A stretch of 64,000 bases of DNA from Pseudoflavonifractor sp. An184 (lineage in GTDB: Bacteria > Bacillota > Clostridia > Oscillospirales > Oscillospiraceae), in assembly GCF_002160305.1 (NCBI RefSeq), contig NZ_NFKI01000002.1:62001-126000 (forward strand), in the 5' to 3' direction. Positions within the stretch are counted from its first letter, which is position 1. The number at the start of each line of letters is the position of its first letter. Below are positions 12,295 through 63,821 of this stretch, piece after piece. A program made the translations under genes and the position numbers. The notes under the pieces were generated by a model. The model did no database searches. It saw only the letters and a program-made list of their open reading frames with translations, and was not told the origin of the DNA.

Positions 12295-12955
12295 GGTATC
12301 ATCTCCTCCCCGTCAGCCTAGCAGACGGACGGGCCGCCCGCCACCATCCGGCGGTTTTGGTTTTGCTAACCGTGGGTTTACATGGGAGTGAAAGGGTTGG
12401 GAGACAAGGGATTGAAGTTGGTCTTGATCTGTGCGGGAGATTTCGCCGCCCTATGTTGCAGGGTTTCGCCCTGCGGGGCGAGGTACTTTCCCAGCGATGG
12501 GAAAGCACCCAAAGGATCGCCGGGGGACGGCTCAGGATGGACACTTCGTGTCCATATTCGCCTACCCTACCCCCTCTGTCGCTTCGCGACATCTCCCCCT
12601 GACAGGGGGAGTCGGCCCCCGGTCCCCCATTACGGGGGACGCGTACCTGCTGGATTTTGCAGCATTTCCGGCGCGCAAAATCTGAGTGGTTGGTCTCAAT
12701 TCCCGCCGGGCCACTGGGCCCTGGCCGGATGGAAAATTGCGTCGGCTGCAATTCCACGGCTGCGCCTAGCCTGGCCGAGCAGGTGATAGCTGGTCCGTCA
12801 TCGTCGGGCCGGTCTGGGACCGGCCCCTACGAAAGAAGGGACAGCTTCTGTATCCGCCGTAGGGGCGGGTGTCCTCACCCGCCCGTGCCTCCCCCTGAAA
12901 GGGACGGCTGGAAAAATCAGGCGGCGAAACGCAGTTTCGCACCAAGTTCTTTTGG
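12295..12955. repeat. Gene-free repeat block, 660 bp
   Basis: No gene seen. About 12450-12790 holds one copy of the large dispersed repeat here called family A: hairpin CTTTCCCAGCGATGGGAAAG, then GGATCGCCGGGGGACGGCTC, a GGACAC/GTGTCC pair, CCCCCATTACGGGGG, then TTCCGGCGCGCAAAATC and GGGCCACTGGGCCC. About 12560-12615 is a further palindrome with ATCTCCCCCTGACAGGGGGA. 12798-12890 has two family C copies (GTAGGGGCGGGT...CACCCGCCC type). A family E copy follows at 12924. Confidence 0.7.
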
Positions 12956-12980
12956 TTACTTTTCTTCTAAGAAAAGTAAC
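12924..12980. repeat. Family E palindromic repeat overlapping the rnmV 3' end
   Basis: GCGAAACGCAGTTTCGC followed by GTTCTTTTGGTTACTTTTCT and its complement AAGAAAAGTAAC. A second copy is at 25708-25764 over the ribBA 3' end. In both cases the terminal palindrome supplies the last codons and the stop codon of the gene. Confidence 0.7.
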
Positions 12981-15485: not shown

Positions 15486-16612
15486 TGGGTTACCCTTCTT
15501 TTTCTTTTTTTCACGTGGAGATTTCGCTGCCTGCGGGCAGCGAGTGACTTTGCCCGCGGCGGCTCGTCGTCGCAATGGCCCAGGCCACCTTCTCTTGGCC
15601 CTTCGGTCCAATTCACCTTGAGTCCACTCGACTCCGTTTCCGCCTGGTGGCGAAAACTGCGCTCGTTCCCTTGCTCCTCCTCTTCCCGGCGAACCCACTT
15701 CGTTGGGCTTCGCCGGGAGGTACGAGAGAGATTACCCAAAACGCCGCCGGGAACGCGGCCGATGGACTACGGCTCCGCTTCGCTCCGCCTAGGTCCATAG
15801 GACCGCTTTCCCCGGATCCCATTACGGGGGACGCGTACTTGCTGGATTTTCCTGCGCTTCCGGCGCGCAAAATCTGAGTGGCGGTCTAAATTCCTGCCGG
15901 GCCACTTCGTCGTCACGGATTCCGTATCCCTCGCTTCGCCCGGATCGGGCAAAGCTCGCTCACTCCATCGCTCCTCCTCTCCAACGCAAACCCGCTGCGC
16001 TGGGCTTTGCGTTGGGGGCCGCCTTCGGCGGCCTATTGGGTGGAAAATTACAGCCGGTGCGGGTTCACGGCTGCGCCTGGCTTCGCCGAGCTAACGGTAC
16101 CGGTGCGGTTTCCGCCGCAGGAGCGACCCTTGCGGCCGCCAGAAAGCCTTCCCCCTGTCAGGGGGAAGGTGCCCCCGAAGGGGGCGGATGAGGGTGACCT
16201 CTTGGCCCGCCCACCTACCGCAGAAGCCCTAAGGACCTCCCCTATCCAAAATCCGAACCGATTTCGTTCATGCCGCAGGGGAGGGACTTGCCCCTCCCGC
16301 CGTCCCCTTGAGCCGCACTTGAGCCTCACCGGCTCAAAAGGCGCGCTTCCAACCGGTAGGAGGACCACCCAAAGGTTACCGGAAACTCAGCGGCAGCGGT
16401 AATAGTACGGAAACTGTTCAGCTGAGCCGCCCGCGCCTTTGCGATTACGAGCCATGCCGCCTAATTGGCGGCCCCCGTAAAATGGGGTCCGGGGAAAGGC
16501 AACTATGAGCACGCAGTGCTCATCGGAGCCGTCCCCGGGGGCGTTTTGCCTACTTTGCCGCCATGGGCAAAGTAGATCGCCGCCCGCAGGCGGCGAAATT
16601 CCCCGCACAAAA
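15486..16612. repeat. Gene-free repeat block, about 1.1 kb
   Basis: No gene seen. Contents: family D hairpins at about 15675-15722 and 15975-16022 (CTCCTCTTCCCGGCGAACCC...GGGCTTCGCCGGGAGG type); family A pieces at about 15805-15905 and 16019-16110; family B at about 16143-16200 (CCTTCCCCCTGTCAGGGGGA type, then GGATGAGGG); a family C-like hairpin near 16275-16305; and an inverted, degraded family A copy at about 16450-16610. Several elements are nested or fused, suggesting repeated insertion at one safe site. Confidence 0.65.
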
Positions 16613-40834: not shown

Positions 40835-41715
40835 AGTTGCTTTTCCTGCCTCCTTTTTATGTACTCGCGGGAACTTCGCCCTCTGCTCCATCTAAGCCTT
40901 CCCCCTGGGGGAAGGTGGCCCCGAAGGGGCCGAATGAGGGGGCGATGATTGAGCTCCTTCGTCCGTTGCGGAGGAATTTCGCCGCCTGCTCCCTCCCAAG
41001 CCTTCCCCCTGGGGGAAGGTGGCACGGCGAAGCCGTGACGGATGAGGGGGCGATGACAGCGCCGTTTCGTTTCTTGCAGGGGGGATTTCGCCGCCTGCGG
41101 GCGGCGAGTTTCTTTCCCAGCGATGGGAAAGAAACCAAAGGATCGCCGGGGGACGGCTCAGGATGAGCGCTCCGCGCTCATATTCGCCTTACCCCCAGAC
41201 CCCCATTACGAGGGACGCGTACCTGTGAGATAGAAAAAATTTTCCGGCGCGCAAAATCTAAGCGGCTTTCCTCAATTCCCTCCGGGCCACTGGGCCCTGG
41301 GTTTGCAAAAATGGCAACTGGTGCGGTTCCACTTCTGCGCCTAGGTTTACTGAGCCAGCGGTACTGGTGCTGGATACGCCGTAGGGGCGGCTCAATGTGG
41401 CCGCCCGCTTACCCAATCCCGAAAGAGTTTCTTAAGAACCGTAGGGGAGGGGCTGAAGGTGAATCGGCCGAAGGCCGAGAGAAGCCACCCTGGGGTGTGC
41501 CCCTCCCGCGGGCCGGTCTGGGACCGGCCCCTACGGCGTGGCCGGACAGTGATAGCCCTCCGTAGGGCACGGCCTCCTGGACGCGCCGCCCCGGCCGCCT
41601 GTAACGCCCGTAGGGGCGGCACACCGGGCCGCCCGCTTTTTATCCTGTCCTGCCCAGGCCGAGAAAGAGCATGGAAAAATACCGGATCAAACGTCCCCCC
41701 GCCTCCGCTTCTAGT
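40835..41715. repeat. Gene-free repeat block, about 0.9 kb
   Basis: No gene seen. Two family B copies at about 40893-40945 and 40998-41056 (CCTTCCCCCTGGGGGAAGGT, then GGATGAGG or GAATGAGG). A family A copy at about 41090-41330, with the same hairpin order as at 12450-12790. Family C copies near 41378-41406, 41500-41545 and 41600-41640 (GTAGGGGCGG type). Confidence 0.65.
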
Positions 41716-50759: not shown

Positions 50760-50779
50760 GAAACGAGGTGGCTCCCCAT

Positions 50780-53179
50780 ATGATGATAAAATATCCCATT
50801 CACAAGGTTGCCAAGGATTTCAAGCGGGGGTCCAAAGAGCTCCCTTCCAAGGAGATCATGGACATTCTGACCCAGTACGGCCATCCCCCCAAGAACCATA
50901 TGCAGCCCCTGACCGACCAGGAGCTGTCCATCGTGTTTGAATATCTGACCCAGCACAACCAGGTGGACTCCATCGAGTCCATCTACGCCGACGTGTACCA
51001 CGAGCCGGCCGCCGCCAAAAGCGCCGCTCCCGCCCCCAAGCAGCCCGCCCAGGGCCAGCAGCAGGCCAAGAGCGCCAACAGCCAGCCGGCCAAGCAGCCC
51101 GCTCAGAACCAGAGCGCCGCCAAGCCCGCCGCCCAGGGCGCCAAGCCGCAGGGCCAGACCCAGGCCCCCGCCTCCAACAAGCCCGCCTCCCGCACCCCCG
51201 CCAAGAAGGTGGTGGACACCCGGGGCGGCCAGGCGGTGAACCTGGAGAAGTACGACGAGCGTCTGGAGAACTTCACCACCGAGCGCCAGCAGCAGGGCGG
51301 CGGCAAGCAGAAGTTCCAGGGCCGCAACGCCCAGCGCCAGCGGGGCCGTCAGCAGGGCCCCGGCAACAAGCGCCGCCAGGAGGAGGCCGAGAAGATGCGC
51401 CGCCTCCAGCTGGAGATTGCCAAGAAGGCCCCGGTGAAGGTGATGATCCCCGACGAGATCGGCGTTGGCGAGCTGGCCTCCCGCATGAAGAAGACCGGCG
51501 CCGAGGTGGTCAAGACCCTGATGAAGATGGGCGTCATGGCCTCCCTCAGCGAGATCATTGACTACGACACCGCCGCCCTGGTGGCCATGGAGCTGGGCTG
51601 CAAGGTGGAGAAGGAAGTGGTAGTCACCATCGAGGAGAAGCTCATCGACACCACCGAGGACAAGGAGGAGGATCTGATCCCCCGCGCCCCCGTGGTGGTG
51701 GTCATGGGCCACGTGGACCACGGCAAGACCTCCCTGCTGGACTATATCCGCCACGCCAACGTGGTCTCCGGTGAGGCCGGCGGCATCACCCAGCACATCG
51801 GCGCCTATCAGGTGGACGTGAACGGCAAGCCCGTCACCTTCCTGGACACCCCCGGCCACGAGGCCTTTACCGCCATGCGCGCCCGAGGCGCCATGGTCAC
51901 CGACATCGCCATCCTGGTGGTGGCAGCCGACGACGGCATCATGCCCCAGACCGTGGAGTCCATCAACCACGCCAAGGCCGCCGAGATCCCCATCATCGTG
52001 GCCATCAACAAGATGGATAAACCCACCGCCAACCCCGACCGCATCATGCAGCAGCTCACCGAGTACGAGCTGGTGCCCGAGGAGTGGGGCGGCGAGACCA
52101 TTATCTGCCCCATCTCCGCCAAAACCGGCATGGGCATCGACAACCTGCTGGACATGGTGGTCCTCACCGCCGAGATGCGGGAGCTGAAGGCCAACCCCAA
52201 CCGCTCCGCTCACGGCGCAGTCATCGAGGCCCGGCTGGACAAGGGCCGCGGCCCCGTGGCCACCCTGCTGGTGCAGAACGGCACCCTGAAGCAGGGCGAC
52301 GTGATCATCGCCGGCACCGCCGTGGGCCGTGTCCGCGCTATGACCAACGACAAGGGCCAGAAGGTCACCGAGGCCGGCCCCTCCGTCCCCGTGGAGATCA
52401 TCGGCATGGGCGAGGTGCCCGAGGCGGGCGACGACTTCCACGCCGTGGCCGACGAGCGCATGGCCCGGGAGCTGGCCGAGCAGCGCAAGTCCGAGCAGAA
52501 GAACGCCCTGAACAGCAATGTGGGCAAGGTCACCCTGGAGGACCTGTTCAGCCAGATTCAGGCCGGCGAGATGAAGAACCTGAACGTCATCGTCAAGGCC
52601 GACGTCCAGGGTTCCGCCGAGGCGGTGAAATCCTCCCTGGAGAAGCTGTCCAACGAGGAGGTTCGGGTGCGGGTCATCCACTGCGCCGTGGGCGCCATCA
52701 ACGAGTCCGACGTGATGCTGGCCACCACCTCCGGCGCCATCATCGTGGGCTTCAACGTGCGGCCCGACGCCAACGCCAAGGAGAGCGCCGCCCGCAGCCA
52801 CGTGGATATGCGCATGTACCGGGTCATCTACGACGCCATCAACGAGATCGAGGCGGCCATGAAGGGCATGCTCACCCCCAAATTCAAGGAGGTGGACCTG
52901 GGCCGGGCCGAGGTGCGCAACGTGTTCCGCATCACCGGCGTGGGCATGGTGGCCGGCTGCTATGTGCTGGACGGCAAGATGCAGCGGGGCGCCCAGATGC
53001 GCCTGCTCCGGGACAACATCGTCATCTACGACGGCGCCATCGCCTCCCTCCAGCGGTTCAAGGACTCCGTCAAGGAGGTCGCCGCCGGCTACGAGTGCGG
53101 CATTACCTTTGAGAAGTTCCAGGACATCAAGGAAGGCGATATCGTGGAGGCCTACCTCATGGAGGAAGTAGAGCGGTAA
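50780..53179 (+). CDS. infB: Translation initiation factor IF-2
   Basis: 799 aa from the ATG at 50780 (GAGGTGG upstream). N-terminal IF2_N domain, a Gln/Ala/Lys-rich linker (about 70-205), G domain with [16 protein letters not shown] (G1), DTPGHEAF (G3) and NKMDKP (G4), then the IF-2 C domains. The last residues read [11 protein letters not shown] second copy of the 3' end 165 bp downstream ends EAYLMEQIEV, probably the original C-terminus. Confidence 0.97.
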
Positions 53180-53398
53180 TGCCGCACGAGTCCCTCGCGC
53201 AGCGAGGGCGCGCCTTTTGGCGCGTAAAATCGCAGCCGCAGGCGAAGATTTGCGCAGGGCGAATTCATTTCGCCCGAGCATTTTAAAAGTCAAAGGGGCC
53301 CCCGCGGAATGGAACATTCCGTGGGGAAGTGCGGCATTACCTTTGAGAAGTTCCAGGACATCAAGGAAGGCGATATCGTGGAGGCCTACCTCATGGAG
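53096..53398 (+). repeat. 69-bp direct repeat of the infB 3' end around a 165-bp insert
   Basis: 53096-53164 and 53330-53398 are identical by eye over 69 bases. The 165-bp insert between them holds palindromic repeat DNA: CTCGCGCAGCGAG, GCGCGCCTTTTGGCGCG, GGGCGAATTCATTTCGCCC and CCGCGGAATGGAACATTCCG. This gives the structure of a target-site-like duplication, but far longer than usual for a transposon. Confidence 0.85.
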
Positions 53399-53736: not shown

Positions 53737-53775
53737 TTATAGTTTACTGAAAGTTAAATGTCAAGGGGGTATTCT

Positions 53776-54003
53776 ATGTTCAGCAAAGAAGAATTTGGGC
53801 AGCGGTTGAAAAAACTGCGTTTGGAGCGCCAGGAAAACCAGTCAGTCCTGGCAGAGGTTCTCGGCGTCAGCGTCGCCCAGATCAGCGAGATCGAAAACGG
53901 GAATAAAGCTACCACGCTGGAGAAGTTTGCCCTGATTTGTGAACACTATCAAGTGTCTGCCGATTATCTGCTGGGGTTTCAACCCGGTCCGCGGGAGGAG
54001 TAG
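53776..54003 (+). CDS. XRE-family transcriptional regulator
   Basis: 75 aa from the ATG at 53776 with AAGGGGG upstream. Helix-turn-helix FGQRLKKLRLERQENQSVLAEVLGVSVAQISEIENGNKATTLEKFALICEHYQVSADYLLG, complete Cro/CI fold. Single-domain regulator, probably autoregulated through the palindrome at 53720. It sits between infB and rbfA, which are normally adjacent. Confidence 0.92.
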   Translation: MFSKEEFGQRLKKLRLERQENQSVLAEVLGVSVAQISEIENGNKATTLEKFALICEHYQVSADYLLGFQPGPREE

Positions 54004-54656
54004 CCCCCTCCCCTGCGGCTGTGCCGCTTCCTTCCTGGTAATGCGAGGTCTGGGACGGGTGTCCACATGGGGCCGCCCCTACAAGAGGTCCGACCCCTGC
54101 CCCCTCATCCGTCACGGCTTCGCCGTGCCACCTTCCCCCCAAGGGGAAGGTTTAGGAGGCGCAGAATTCGCACCGGGAGCGTTGGCTCGGCAAAGCCAGG
54201 CGCAGTAGTGAAACCGCACCAGCGGCAATTTTTGCAAACCCAGGGCCCAGTGGCCCGGGAGGAATCGCGGAAAGCCACTCCATTTTTGCGCGCCGGAAAT
54301 GACGCACAGTCTCTCAGGAGCGCGTCCTCCGTAACGGGGGACCGGGGGTAAGGCGAATATGGACACGGAGTGTCCATCCTGAGCCGTCCCCCGGCGATTC
54401 TTTGGTGACTTTCTCATCGCTGAGAAAGTCACTCGCCGCCGGAGCGGCGAAATTCTCCCCTCATTCCCTGAAAGGGAACGAAAAGAGGCGGCGGGGGCAA
54501 GTCCCCGCCCTACCGCGGATCTGCGCCTTAACCTATCCCCTCATCCGCCCCCTTCGGGGGCACCTTCCCCTCAGGGGGGGAGGCTATCAATATTCGTACG
54601 ACCATCACCATATAACAAAACCGACTCTCTGACCACAAAGGAAAGGAGAAACCACT
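54004..54656. repeat. Gene-free repeat block, 650 bp
   Basis: No gene seen. A family C copy at about 54052-54090, an inverted family B at about 54103-54152, an inverted family A at about 54185-54460 (TTTGCGCGCCGGAAA, then CCGTAACGGGGG, then GAGCCGTCCCCCGGCG, then CTTTCTCATCGCTGAGAAAG), a C-like hairpin at about 54490-54525, and an inverted family B at about 54530-54590. The order mirrors the block at 12.3-12.9 kb. Confidence 0.65.
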
Positions 54657-55052: not shown

Positions 55053-56011
55053 ACTTCACCATCGAGCAGACCGGAGAATTTCTCAAAGACCACGACGGCT
55101 ATCTGATCCTCACCCACGTGCGCCCGGACGGAGACACAGTGGGCTGCGCCGCCGCCCTGTGCCGGGGTCTGCGGGACCTGGGCAAGACCGCCCATGTGCT
55201 CCCCAACCCGGAGACCACCTCCCTGTTCTCCCCCTATCTGGAGGGCCTGCTGGCCCCGGAGGATTTTCGTCCGGAGACCGTGGTGTCGGTGGATATGGCC
55301 GCCCGGGGGCTCTTCCCGGACAACGCCCAGCAGTATCTGGAGCGTGTGGATCTGGCCATTGACCACCACCCCTCCCAGGAGTTTTTCGCCCAAAACACCT
55401 GCCTGGATGCGGAGCGGGCCGCCTGCGGCGAGCTGATGTACGATATTCTCCGGGGAATCACCCCTATCACCCGGGGCATCGCCCTCCCCCTCTATGTGGC
55501 TGTGTCCACCGACTGCGGCTGCTTCGTGTACGGGAACACCTCCGCCGGCACCCACCGGGTGGCCGCCGCCCTCATGGACACCGGCATCCCCACGGCGGAG
55601 CTGAACAAGCGCCACTTCCGCACCAAGAGCTTCAAGCGGCTGCGGCTGGAGAGCATGCTCACCGAGTCCCTGGAGTTCCACGACGGCGGTGAAATCGCCA
55701 TCGCCGCCATCAGTCTCCATATGATGGACACCCTCCAGGCGGACGAGCGGGACGCGGAGGACATCGCCGCCTTTGTGGGCCAGGTGGAGGGGGTCAAGAC
55801 CGGAGTCACCATCCGGGAGCGGAAGGACGGCTCCTGCAAGATCTCCCTGCGCACCGACCCGGACGATCTAAACGCCAGCTCGGTCTGCGCCCTTCTGGGG
55901 GGCGGCGGCCACGCCGCCGCCGCCGGGGCCACGGTGGAGGGGGACATCCCTCACACCAAGCAGGTCCTGATGGAGGCCATCCGGACGGTACAGGGCCGGA
56001 AGGGCCAATAA
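55049..56011 (+). CDS. nrnA: DHH-family phosphoesterase NrnA-like (nanoRNase / pAp phosphatase)
   Basis: 320 aa. Motifs LTHVRPDGDTVGCA, VSVDMA, LAIDHHPS, and DHHA1 end GGGGHAAAAGATV. Degrades short RNAs and 3',5'-bisphosphates. Normal place after rbfA. Confidence 0.93.
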   Translation: MNFTIEQTGEFLKDHDGYLILTHVRPDGDTVGCAAALCRGLRDLGKTAHVLPNPETTSLFSPYLEGLLAPEDFRPETVVSVDMAARGLFPDNAQQYLERVDLAIDHHPSQEFFAQNTCLDAERAACGELMYDILRGITPITRGIALPLYVAVSTDCGCFVYGNTSAGTHRVAAALMDTGIPTAELNKRHFRTKSFKRLRLESMLTESLEFHDGGEIAIAAISLHMMDTLQADERDAEDIAAFVGQVEGVKTGVTIRERKDGSCKISLRTDPDDLNASSVCALLGGGGHAAAAGATVEGDIPHTKQVLMEAIRTVQGRKGQ

Positions 56012-56023
56012 CCGGGGGGTTTT

Positions 56024-56203
56024 ATGGCAAACGGAATTTTAATCATCGACAAGCCCCAGGACTGGACCTCGTCGGGGCTCGACCTTATGGAACGCGGAAC
56101 CGCTGGCGCGATTCCGCTTATCCCGGCGGCCGGCCCCTCCTCTTCGCGGCAAACCCGCTGCGCTGGGCTTTGCCGCGAGAAACGGGGGTGTCTCAGTGCC
56201 TAA
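56024..56203 (+). pseudogene. Duplicated truB 5' end (59-codon remnant)
   Basis: The native-looking start (ATG at 56024 after GGGGGG) reads MANGILIIDKPQDWT, then runs into insert sequence and stops at TAA 56201-56203. The stop overlaps the GTG start of the intact truB (56196), so ribosomes ending here could re-initiate on truB. Confidence 0.8.
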
Positions 56204-56240
56204 CGGAATTTTAATCATCGACAAGCCCCAGGACTGGACC
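56030..56240 (+). repeat. 39-bp direct repeat of the truB 5' end around a 133-bp insert
   Basis: 56030-56068 and 56202-56240 are identical over 39 bases. The 133-bp insert contains GGAACGCGGAACC, then GCGCGATTCCGC, then a family D hairpin (CTCCTCTTCGCGGCAAACCC...GGGCTTTGCCGCGAG), the same kind as at 15675 and 15975. Confidence 0.85.
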
Positions 56241-57065
56241 AGTATGGATGTGTGCGCAAAGCTGCGGCGGGTGCTGGGCGAGCGGCGCATCGGCCATGCG
56301 GGCACTCTGGACCCCATGGCCACCGGGGTGCTCCCGGTGTTTGTGGGCCGGGCCACCCGGGCGGTGGAGTTCGCCAGCGAGGGGGAGAAGGAGTACCTGG
56401 CCGGCCTGCGCCTGGGCCAGGTCACCGACACCCAGGACACCACCGGCACGGTGCTGGAGACCCACCCAGTGGACGTCACCCCGGAGGCGCTGGAGGCCGC
56501 TCTGGAGCCCTTCCGGGGGGACATTCAGCAGATCCCCCCCATGTACTCCGCCATCAAGATCCAGGGCAAAAAGCTCTATGAGCTGGCCCGGAAGGGCAGG
56601 GAGGTGGAGCGGCCCCCCCGGAACATCACCATCCACTCCCTGACGGTGGAGGAGCAGGTGAGCGGCACCGACTTTCTTCTGCGGGCGCGGTGCTCCAAGG
56701 GCACCTATGTGCGCACTCTGTGCCACGACATCGGCCGGGCCCTGGGCTGCGGCGGGACCATGTTCTCCCTGCGCCGGACCATGGCCGCCGGGTTTACTCT
56801 GGCGCAGTCCCATCCCCTGCCGGAGGTTCTGGAGCACCCGGACCCGGCCTCCCTGCTCATTCCTGTGGACGCCTACTTTTCCGGGCGGCCAGAGCTGCGC
56901 CTCCGCCCTGAGGCGGAAAAAAAGGTGCGCAACGGCGTGTCCTTCCCCCTGCCCGGCACAGAGGACGGGGAGTACCGGGTATACGGCGCCACAGGGGAAT
57001 TTCTGTCCCTGAGCCGGGTGGAGCGGGGAACCCTGCGGACCATCAAGAGCTTTTTCGAGGTATAA
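56196..57065 (+). CDS. truB: tRNA pseudouridine(55) synthase
   Basis: 289 aa from a GTG at 56196. GILIIDKPQDWTSMDVC, then RIGHAGTLDPMATGVLPVFVGRAT with the catalytic Asp, then SAIKIQGKKLYELARKG, PUA-like C-terminus. Makes Psi55 in the T-loop of tRNA. Its start is a second copy of the N-terminus and lacks the stronger ribosome site of the first copy. Confidence 0.95.
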   Translation: MPNGILIIDKPQDWTSMDVCAKLRRVLGERRIGHAGTLDPMATGVLPVFVGRATRAVEFASEGEKEYLAGLRLGQVTDTQDTTGTVLETHPVDVTPEALEAALEPFRGDIQQIPPMYSAIKIQGKKLYELARKGREVERPPRNITIHSLTVEEQVSGTDFLLRARCSKGTYVRTLCHDIGRALGCGGTMFSLRRTMAAGFTLAQSHPLPEVLEHPDPASLLIPVDAYFSGRPELRLRPEAEKKVRNGVSFPLPGTEDGEYRVYGATGEFLSLSRVERGTLRTIKSFFEV

Positions 57066-60885: not shown

Positions 60886-60920
60886 ATGTAAAACCTCCTT
60901 GTCTGGGGCACAGCTCTCCA

Positions 60921-61081
60921 GGCCTTGCTTGAAACATGTCAACATACCCAAACGTGGGTCTTTTCCCGCCATACTGCGTTGATTTTTCTTGCAATCCACC
61001 TAAGGATTGCCGCGCCAAACCGCCTTGTCTGGCGAAAAAATCCCTCGCCGTCGGGCACATTTCCATGCTTCAAACAGGACC
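60921..61081. mobile_element. MITE-like element, copy 1, inside the spoIIA operon
   Basis: About 161 bp. Its ends are imperfect inverted repeats (GGCCTTGCTTGAAA and TTCAAACAGGACC). Interior marks: ACATACCCAAACGTGGG, CGCCATACTGCGTTGAT, GCAATCC...GGATTGC, GGCGAAAAAATCCCTCGCCG. Copy 2 lies inverted at 63658-63817, about nine of ten bases the same by eye. Confidence 0.75.
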
Positions 61082-61413
61082 TAACCGCCAGGGTTTGATT
61101 TGACATCGGGCTCAAACGGGACCAGCTTGTCCAGGCCGGCGGCCTGAAACACCCGTCTGGCCTGCTCCGGGGCGTTGACCACCGCCATGCTCCCCTGGAG
61201 CTGCCGCATCCTCCGGAAGGTGCGCAGCACCACGGCGATGCCGGAGCTGTCGGTAAAGGTCAGCCCGGCCAGATCCAGGGTCAGCTTCCGGGGCAGGGCG
61301 GCGTCGATCTGCCGGTCCAGCTCCTCCATCACCTCCCGGGCCCGGTGGTGGTCCAGCTCCCCGGACAGGGACGCGGTGAGGCAGCGGTTTTCCTCCATAC
61401 AGGTCACGGACAT
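61081..61413 (-). CDS. spoIIAA: Anti-anti-sigma factor SpoIIAA
   Basis: 110 aa from the ATG at 61413 with AGGGAG upstream. STAS fold: LTLDLAGLTFTDSSGIAVVLRTFRRM with the phospho-acceptor Ser in DSSG. Dephosphorylated SpoIIAA frees SigF from SpoIIAB. The last base of its TAG stop is the first base of the MITE-like element. Confidence 0.94.
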   Translation of the reverse strand: MSVTCMEENRCLTASLSGELDHHRAREVMEELDRQIDAALPRKLTLDLAGLTFTDSSGIAVVLRTFRRMRQLQGSMAVVNAPEQARRVFQAAGLDKLVPFEPDVKSNPGG

Positions 61414-63589: not shown

Positions 63590-63657
63590 CCTCTGTACTC
63601 CTTCGGGCCGCGCCCCTTTATCGTTATGTAAACCGCCCCAAAAGAGGCGGCCGCCCA

Positions 63658-63817
63658 GGCCCTGTTTGAAAATGGAAATGTACCCAGCGGCGAGGGATTT
63701 TTTCGCCAGACAAGGCGATTTGACGCAGCAATCCTTTGTGGATTGCAAGGAAAATCAACGCAGTATGGCGGAAAAAGACCCGCCGTTTGGGTATATTGAC
63801 ATGTTTCAAACATGGCC
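63658..63817. mobile_element. MITE-like element, copy 2, inverted
   Basis: About 160 bp, reverse complement of the element at 60921. Ends GGCCCTGTTTGAAAA and TTTCAAACATGGCC. It lies between the mazF-like gene and the secreted-protein gene. Confidence 0.75.
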
Positions 63818-63821
63818 TATG

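Follow-up and report, generated by a model that had tools for sequence, protein, structure and literature searches.

Small folded repeats bordered by duplicated gene ends in Pseudoflavonifractor sp. An184 and its relatives

Two families of small repeats, D and E1, are probably non-autonomous mobile elements that leave long duplications and an inverted copy of the junction, followed by later gene conversion. The elements are approximately 125-150 nt in length, strongly folded and apparently non-coding, and their nearest named records belong to Pseudoflavonifractor capillosus and other Oscillospiraceae. The layout of an insert consists of a flank (U), the outer copy of a duplicated gene segment (X_L), the element, often a short complement of the junction termed SNAP (8-15 nt), a short spacer, the inner copy (X_R) and the rest of the gene (V). 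This layout recurs in many genes and genomes, with its target genes, its complement and matched empty sites. Inserts with gene-end duplication are a family-wide phenomenon involving two element families and no local accident.

The truB and infB inserts

The window, a stretch of 64,000 nucleotides from Pseudoflavonifractor sp. An184, contains an insert of each family in one operon (Table 1). Comparison of the window sequence with itself confirms exactly what the original prediction had claimed for the start of truB, namely that 39 nt occur twice without a difference (56030-56068 and 56202-56240), 133 bp apart. Over the 44 nt of 56025-56068 and 56197-56240 the identity is 95%. The direct repeat second in length within 55500-57000 is merely 32 nt at 75%, so chance is no reasonable account of the truB duplication. 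Element D of the window scores 139.8 bits against covariance model R1, the sequence itself being among those from which R1 was built.

Table 1. Positions of the inserts and associated features, counted from the first nucleotide of the window.
Feature	Position	Strand	Remarks
Family D match, more divergent	15615-15735	+	48 bits; lacks the CGTC start of most copies; fragment at 15977-16021
infB, whole (putative; named by position)	50768-53179	+	3′ end supplied by the insert
infB tail, inner copy X_R	53094-53164	+	71/71 identical to 53328-53398
SNAP (13 nt), inverted copy of the duplicated segment's inner end	53175-53187	+	GGTAATGCCGCAC; supplies the infB stop codon
Element E1	53189-53326	-	138 nt; 107.8 bits against model R2, this sequence being among those building R2
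infB tail, outer copy X_L	53328-53398	+	Native 3′ flank after it resembles the empty-site flank of L009
truB start, outer copy X_L	56024-56068	+	Contains the native ATG and ribosome site; on its upstream side agrees with the empty site of L009
Upstream ORF	56024-56203	+	ATG, 59 codons, TAA; ends inside truB codons 2-3
Element D	56069-56195	+	127 nt in two hairpin domains (approximately 56074-56137 and 56138-56186)
truB start, inner copy X_R	56196-56240	+	First codons of intact truB
truB, intact	56196-57065	+	GTG start; TruB_N, E 1.6e-54

The upstream copy of the truB start had been described as a remnant of 59 codons whose stop overlaps the GTG of truB. The length is correct and the two frames do overlap, by 8 nt, but the TAA (56201-56203) does not touch the GTG itself. 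Nor is the ORF clearly a dead remnant, since its stop is found at position +5 of truB in 10 of the 13 D-bearing loci; judged from these sequences, a role in translational coupling is possible. The 59-aa product is without a Pfam match.

At infB, the second part of the earlier claim, that two events of the same form occurred in one operon, stands insofar as both genes carry a duplication. It fails as to the repeat family: the infB insert is E1 and not D, and lies in the opposite orientation to the D of truB. The C-terminus of infB reads EEVER before the stop in the window and EQIEV in L009 and L010. A duplicated infB tail is present in the window and in 11 of 68 relatives, at two insertion points, with two units in tandem in L037. 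No duplication is found in L009 and L010; L011 has a possible scar and L013 an E1-like sequence without duplication. Between the infB insert and the next gene of the operon there is an 81-aa ORF (53758-54003), which by eye resembles a small helix-turn-helix regulator.

Other repeats are also present in the window. Large composite intergenic blocks of mosaic repeats, direct and inverted and of approximately 75-93% identity, are located at 54096-54590, 12461-12979, 15818-16604 and 40870-41535. An inverted repeat pair (60920-61082 and 63657-63818; 164 aligned bases, 89% identical) is separated by approximately 2.6 kb.

Among the relatives, 111 truB loci were collected, of which 106 were kept after five identical ones (L089-L092, L117) had been dropped. 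The truB start is duplicated within 600 bp upstream in 14 of the 106, with inserts at one of two sites. Thirteen of these loci carry D, which sits directly after codon 15 in all of them, and two carry E1 (L052, at a spacing of 205, and L022, where D and E1 follow in succession). A tandem state without an insert was noticed in none of the 14. The nearest relative found, L009 (97% TruB identity), has an empty truB site, whose upstream side resembles the flank of the outer copy in the window and whose downstream side resembles that of the inner copy. This supports the predicted insertion of a repeat with flanking duplication in which one whole gene is kept. In any one genome X_L and X_R of truB show 77-100% identity over 39 nt; comparisons between species mostly give lower values.

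The truB insert may be read differently, as an old, vertically inherited translational leader whose copies are kept alike by gene conversion and whose insert is often lost by recombination. Translation of the 59-codon ORF would then run through hairpin 2, which contains some of the truB ribosome site, and truB would be expressed through coupled re-initiation. Copies in D loci are spaced by exactly 172 in 12 of 13 cases (176 in L105) though the truB bodies of D-bearing loci are 64-94% alike (without L070, whose gene is cut by a contig end), and such spacing fits conserved inheritance better than repeated insertion. The recurrent ORF stop at +5 points in the same direction, as do the D helices, since 13 of 37 predicted pairs in an alignment of the 13 truB copies have changes on both sides, and in most copies the predicted fold of hairpin 2 pairs a UCC with the GGA/GGG of the truB ribosome site. 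In L093, L099 and L103, D is 94-98% alike against 72-85% for the truB bodies. Against a leader, 92 of 106 loci are without an insert, a small number of them being distant outgroups. A truB tree was made from 88 loci selected for identity and length, 13 of them with an insert and L070 left out; it requires at least 11 state changes for the 13 inserts, 9 of them forced by starred branches. The histories of D and truB also conflict. L040 and L105 form a group in the D tree, an arrangement that is rejected by truB (p 1.4e-6), while the reverse test on D gives p 0.067; the groups compared were picked after pairwise identities had been seen, and the D tree is poorly supported inside (1 of 10 inner branches starred). 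Further counter-evidence is the shifted reading frame of D in L037, L038 and L051, the early stop of the upstream ORF in L040, and the occurrence of family D matches at many unrelated places. An inherited leader is a possible but rather unlikely origin of the truB insert; a translational leader could still be a use acquired after insertion. The presence of inserts is not significantly clustered on the truB tree, with 61 of 500 shuffles as low, a result that either gains or losses would fit.

Distribution of elements D and E1

Family D is represented in 78 of 150 family genomes by model matches at E 0.001, with 14 in the home genome, although E-values of the covariance model come from a short calibration and are rough. 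The truB copies score 125-140 bits and copies elsewhere up to 68. A purely truB-specific element was considered and rejected, as full-length model matches occur at many other places. BLAST matches of D outside truB in the home genome cover the hairpin 2 part only, and the covariance model was needed for the full length. The original prediction that D is found elsewhere in the window holds for the divergent match and fragment given in Table 1, at which no flanking repeat was found.

From 106 matches, five were dropped (one at the same place as a window match and four below 34 bits), which gave 101 copies, all at or above 36 bits; four with a repeated left flank were then removed to leave 97 non-redundant copies. 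The sequence NCGTC is located at the start of 96 of the 101. A requirement for CC before D had been suspected and was dismissed, as it holds in only 33 of 101. Of the 97 copies, 13, including that of the window, are bordered by direct repeats of 22-110 bp with the left copy ending at D or within 3 nt of it, against 1 of 291 controls; the outcome that would have refuted the original prediction, a lack of flanking duplications at all other family D copies, was thus not obtained. The remaining 84 of 97 copies are without an anchored repeat of score 14 or more, which counts against a mobile origin with long duplications. One of the 13 repeat-flanked copies (L130) is a tandem of elements without a gene end. 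By eye, the gene ends at such copies presumably include those of pgk, tpiA, groEL, rpoD, fliC, typA and truB. Two of these names were tested, truB through TruB_N and typA through its GTPase domain. A tpiA-like tail had no Pfam match in a small-protein check.

D is also associated with tRNA genes. Of the 101 copies, 13 (L125, L135, L138-L141, L143, L187, L194, L198, L199, L203, L206) begin at most 4 nt from the 3′ end of a same-strand tRNA gene, and six at most 4 nt from the 5′ end of an opposite-strand tRNA gene. In several tRNA-adjoining copies a T-run comes after the first hairpin, which by eye resembles the terminator of the tRNA. In L146 (1004-1630) a 141-bp segment with part of the 3′ half of a tRNA-Thr is repeated with two tandem D elements, and the tRNA copy contains a further hairpin. 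The tandem in L130 consists of three D elements with 149-bp spacing.

The E1 model was built from 15 copies from infB, truB and typA, leaving out L053, which has an internal insertion. E1 is present in 63 of 150 family genomes; in a class-wide sample of 291 genomes only two genomes matched at 1e-6 under strict filters, both of the same family. Of 90 matches, seven were dropped (two cut by the locus end, four representing the place of L264 and one of 38.7 bits), and a further seven with short or repeated flanks were removed from the 83 to leave 76 copies in 66 loci. A direct repeat ends within 6 nt of the left end of E1 in 57 of the 76 against 5 of 304 controls. Counted by locus, the left-anchored repeat is found in 50 of 66, and in 43 of the 57 single-unit loci.

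The length of X in these 57 E1 copies is 14-115 bp. A longest-open-frame rule with frames of at least 80 codons places 44 of them at the end of a gene and 10 at the start; the rule mistook at least one truB start, that of L239, for a gene end. The open frame is usually left whole. In 24 of the 44 gene-end copies no more than 3 nt separate the outer edge of X from the called stop codon. NCBIfam gave names to ten target fragments (efp, aspS, ftsY, lepA, pheT, argG, rsmH, glmS, gdhA and formate-THF ligase), and by eye some target genes are struck in more than one genome. In L304 of genome G183, four E1 units are in tandem at 558-1347 with approximately 218-bp spacing, at what by eye is the end of lepA.

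The typA series across genomes comprises E1, D and empty states. Three of 30 loci have a duplicated start: the home genome, G010 (98%) and G017 (71%). By eye, E1 is complete in G010, D is accompanied by an apparent right end of E1 in the home genome, and in G017 E1 is present while the outer copy has decayed. Also by eye, G011, G020 and G207 are scar-like, and G015, G012, G001 and G003 are apparently empty.

No partner enzyme was found among the two candidates considered. Neither the presence of Y1 transposase (59 of 150 genomes) nor that of the reverse transcriptase RVT_1 (47 of 150) appears to follow E1 abundance. Among the nine genomes with at least 21 E1 matches, Y1 is absent from G103, G127, G132, G147 and G190 and RVT_1 from G103, G127, G145 and G190; three of those five and three of those four are less than 90% complete, and absence of an enzyme from an incomplete genome is weak evidence.

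The junction complement and the proposed mechanism

The SNAP is the reverse complement of the X_R|V junction and lies between the right end of the element and X_R. A complement of at least 8 nt is found in 28 of the 57 repeat-flanked E1 copies against 38 of 670 controls. For D, at least 9 nt are present in 8 of 12 copies, the tandem L130 being excluded; controls at 8 nt or more gave 6 of 132 for junctions of other copies and 3 of 73 for shifted windows. A 12-nt complement seen by eye in L190 is not in this count because the interval was cut short. The 13 truB copies of D have no SNAP, the longest complement being 4-6 nt. In 22 of 24 copies with at least 9 nt, the SNAP pairing is retained when the E-sense transcript is folded by prediction; as the set was pre-chosen for complementarity, this means only that no stronger fold displaces it.

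In the proposed mechanism, D and E1 would have moved within and between genomes of the family. The left end of the element would be joined at a point J inside a gene, and a duplication, now detected at 14-115 bp, would run from J to or past the gene start or stop to give one complete gene. The strand leaving the right end of the element would copy the junction backwards and then restart upstream of X, which would produce the SNAP; backward copying might occur through a hairpin-capped end or a template switch. Insertions would survive where the duplication restores an intact gene. Gene conversion, together with purifying selection on the functional copy, would preserve the similarity of the coding part of X as the sequence past the stop codon decays, and recombination between the copies would remove or multiply inserts.

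The hardest fact for the mobile-element reading is that X often ends at the stop codon even where the copies of X are identical, which is unexpected for a duplication blind to genes. Gene conversion confined to the coding sequence under constraint could account for it.

The complement also invites a reading in which the element RNA is a scaffold and the SNAP a guide to J, so that the element would insert into an empty gene and the gene end would be rebuilt or brought along as a rescue. Consistent with a guide, 25 of the 28 E1 complements cross J, and the match to X_R|V is better than that to X_L|element in 22 of 26 copies and worse in 1. The SNAP follows its own gene where genes differ: between the typA loci of G010 and G017 one synonymous base differs in the gene and the matching base differs in the SNAP, and the E1 of truB in L022 and L052 shows the same agreement. 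Orthologous sites are used repeatedly. The SNAP also persists while X decays, occurring in 15 of 25 copies where X has diverged and 11 of 19 where it has not, and this equal frequency means that it may be functional rather than a scar. Several points argue against guidance. The rebuilt neighbouring gene would itself be a target of the SNAP, a nuclease or integrase was not found, 29 of the 57 repeat-flanked E1 copies are without a SNAP of 8 nt, and the truB copies of D lack one. By eye, the SNAP in L037 and L032 is no longer perfect for the infB of those loci, and quasi-palindrome correction could keep a SNAP matched in any case. RNA-guided homing is given little credence, and the same low standing applies to the wider proposal that D and E1 are RNAs that pick one essential-gene site through an 8-15 nt guide and rebuild the gene end, as a natural form of homing and rescue, which is improbable.

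Replication slippage or template switching might instead have created tandem duplications with filler DNA and no mobile element. Inverted junction copies are a usual trace of template switching and fit this origin, and tandem units do occur. The filler, on the other hand, consists of the same two folded families across genera and mostly has one left end, as in the NCGTC start of D and likewise in the left ends of E1, which makes a slippage origin very doubtful. An assembly artefact, for which the 162 contigs of the home genome and the many metagenome bins among the relatives could be cited, is hardly credible, as duplications accompany E1 in the one-contig genomes G012 (4 of 6 copies) and G136 (5 of 6), compared with 12 of 18 in the home genome, and are also present in the named strains P. 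capillosus An827 and O. valericigenes An860.

Relation to known repeats and biological meaning

Family D resembles the CGTC-tagged REPs, as far as the available text of their description goes, in its NCGTC start, often followed by a palindrome, and in its many copies. Those REPs are 20-40 bp in length, with one stem of 8-9 bp, a loop of 4-5 and mostly a CCA tail, and they were reported from five phyla, Firmicutes not among them, without a dedicated transposase (Di Nocera et al. 2013, PMC3733652). The same paper mentions REPs inside truB and nowhere uses the word ‘duplication’. In contrast, D is approximately 127 nt with two hairpin domains and 37 pairs, its right ends vary and it has no common CCA tail. 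On the size and tail given there, D is not classed with the CGTC-tagged REPs. In some tRNA-type copies of D, the CGTC tag itself is inside the palindrome.

The target duplications of MITEs are of a few bases. As described in a review (PMC10969869), MITEs are like D and E1 in being short, non-coding and present in many copies with direct repeats alongside, whereas E1 differs in the length of X, the rebuilt gene ends and the junction complement. The one inverted relation noticed at D and E1 comes from the SNAP, which derives from the target.

Integrative elements in the 3′ ends of tRNA or protein genes restore the gene. D and E1 are similar in that a target end is duplicated and one full gene kept, with D often abutting tRNA genes, and dissimilar in that many unrelated genes are struck per genome, the inserts are of approximately 125-150 nt and no integrase was seen. 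IS200/IS605 elements are not known to cause duplications on insertion. Their ends, and the REPs moved by RAYT, share with D and E1 the hairpins towards the ends; the duplications set D and E1 apart, and the presence of Y1 transposase does not appear to follow that of E1.

A search of Rfam with 19 distinct sources, including copies of D and E1, matched neither family, returning only tRNA and two miRNA hits far below gathering scores. The available text of the open-licence literature yielded no account of similar repeats bordered by long duplications of a gene end. To our knowledge, duplications this long with an inverted junction copy match no known transposition mechanism.

Short palindromic repeats are common in bacteria. 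For D and E1, the target can often be recognised from a duplicated gene end, which shows where the element was joined and how old each event may be, at many genes per genome. The leader ORFs made by inserts and the altered C-termini matter for gene annotation and for start-site calls. The keeping of a whole gene would explain how repeats settle in operons such as that of infB and truB.
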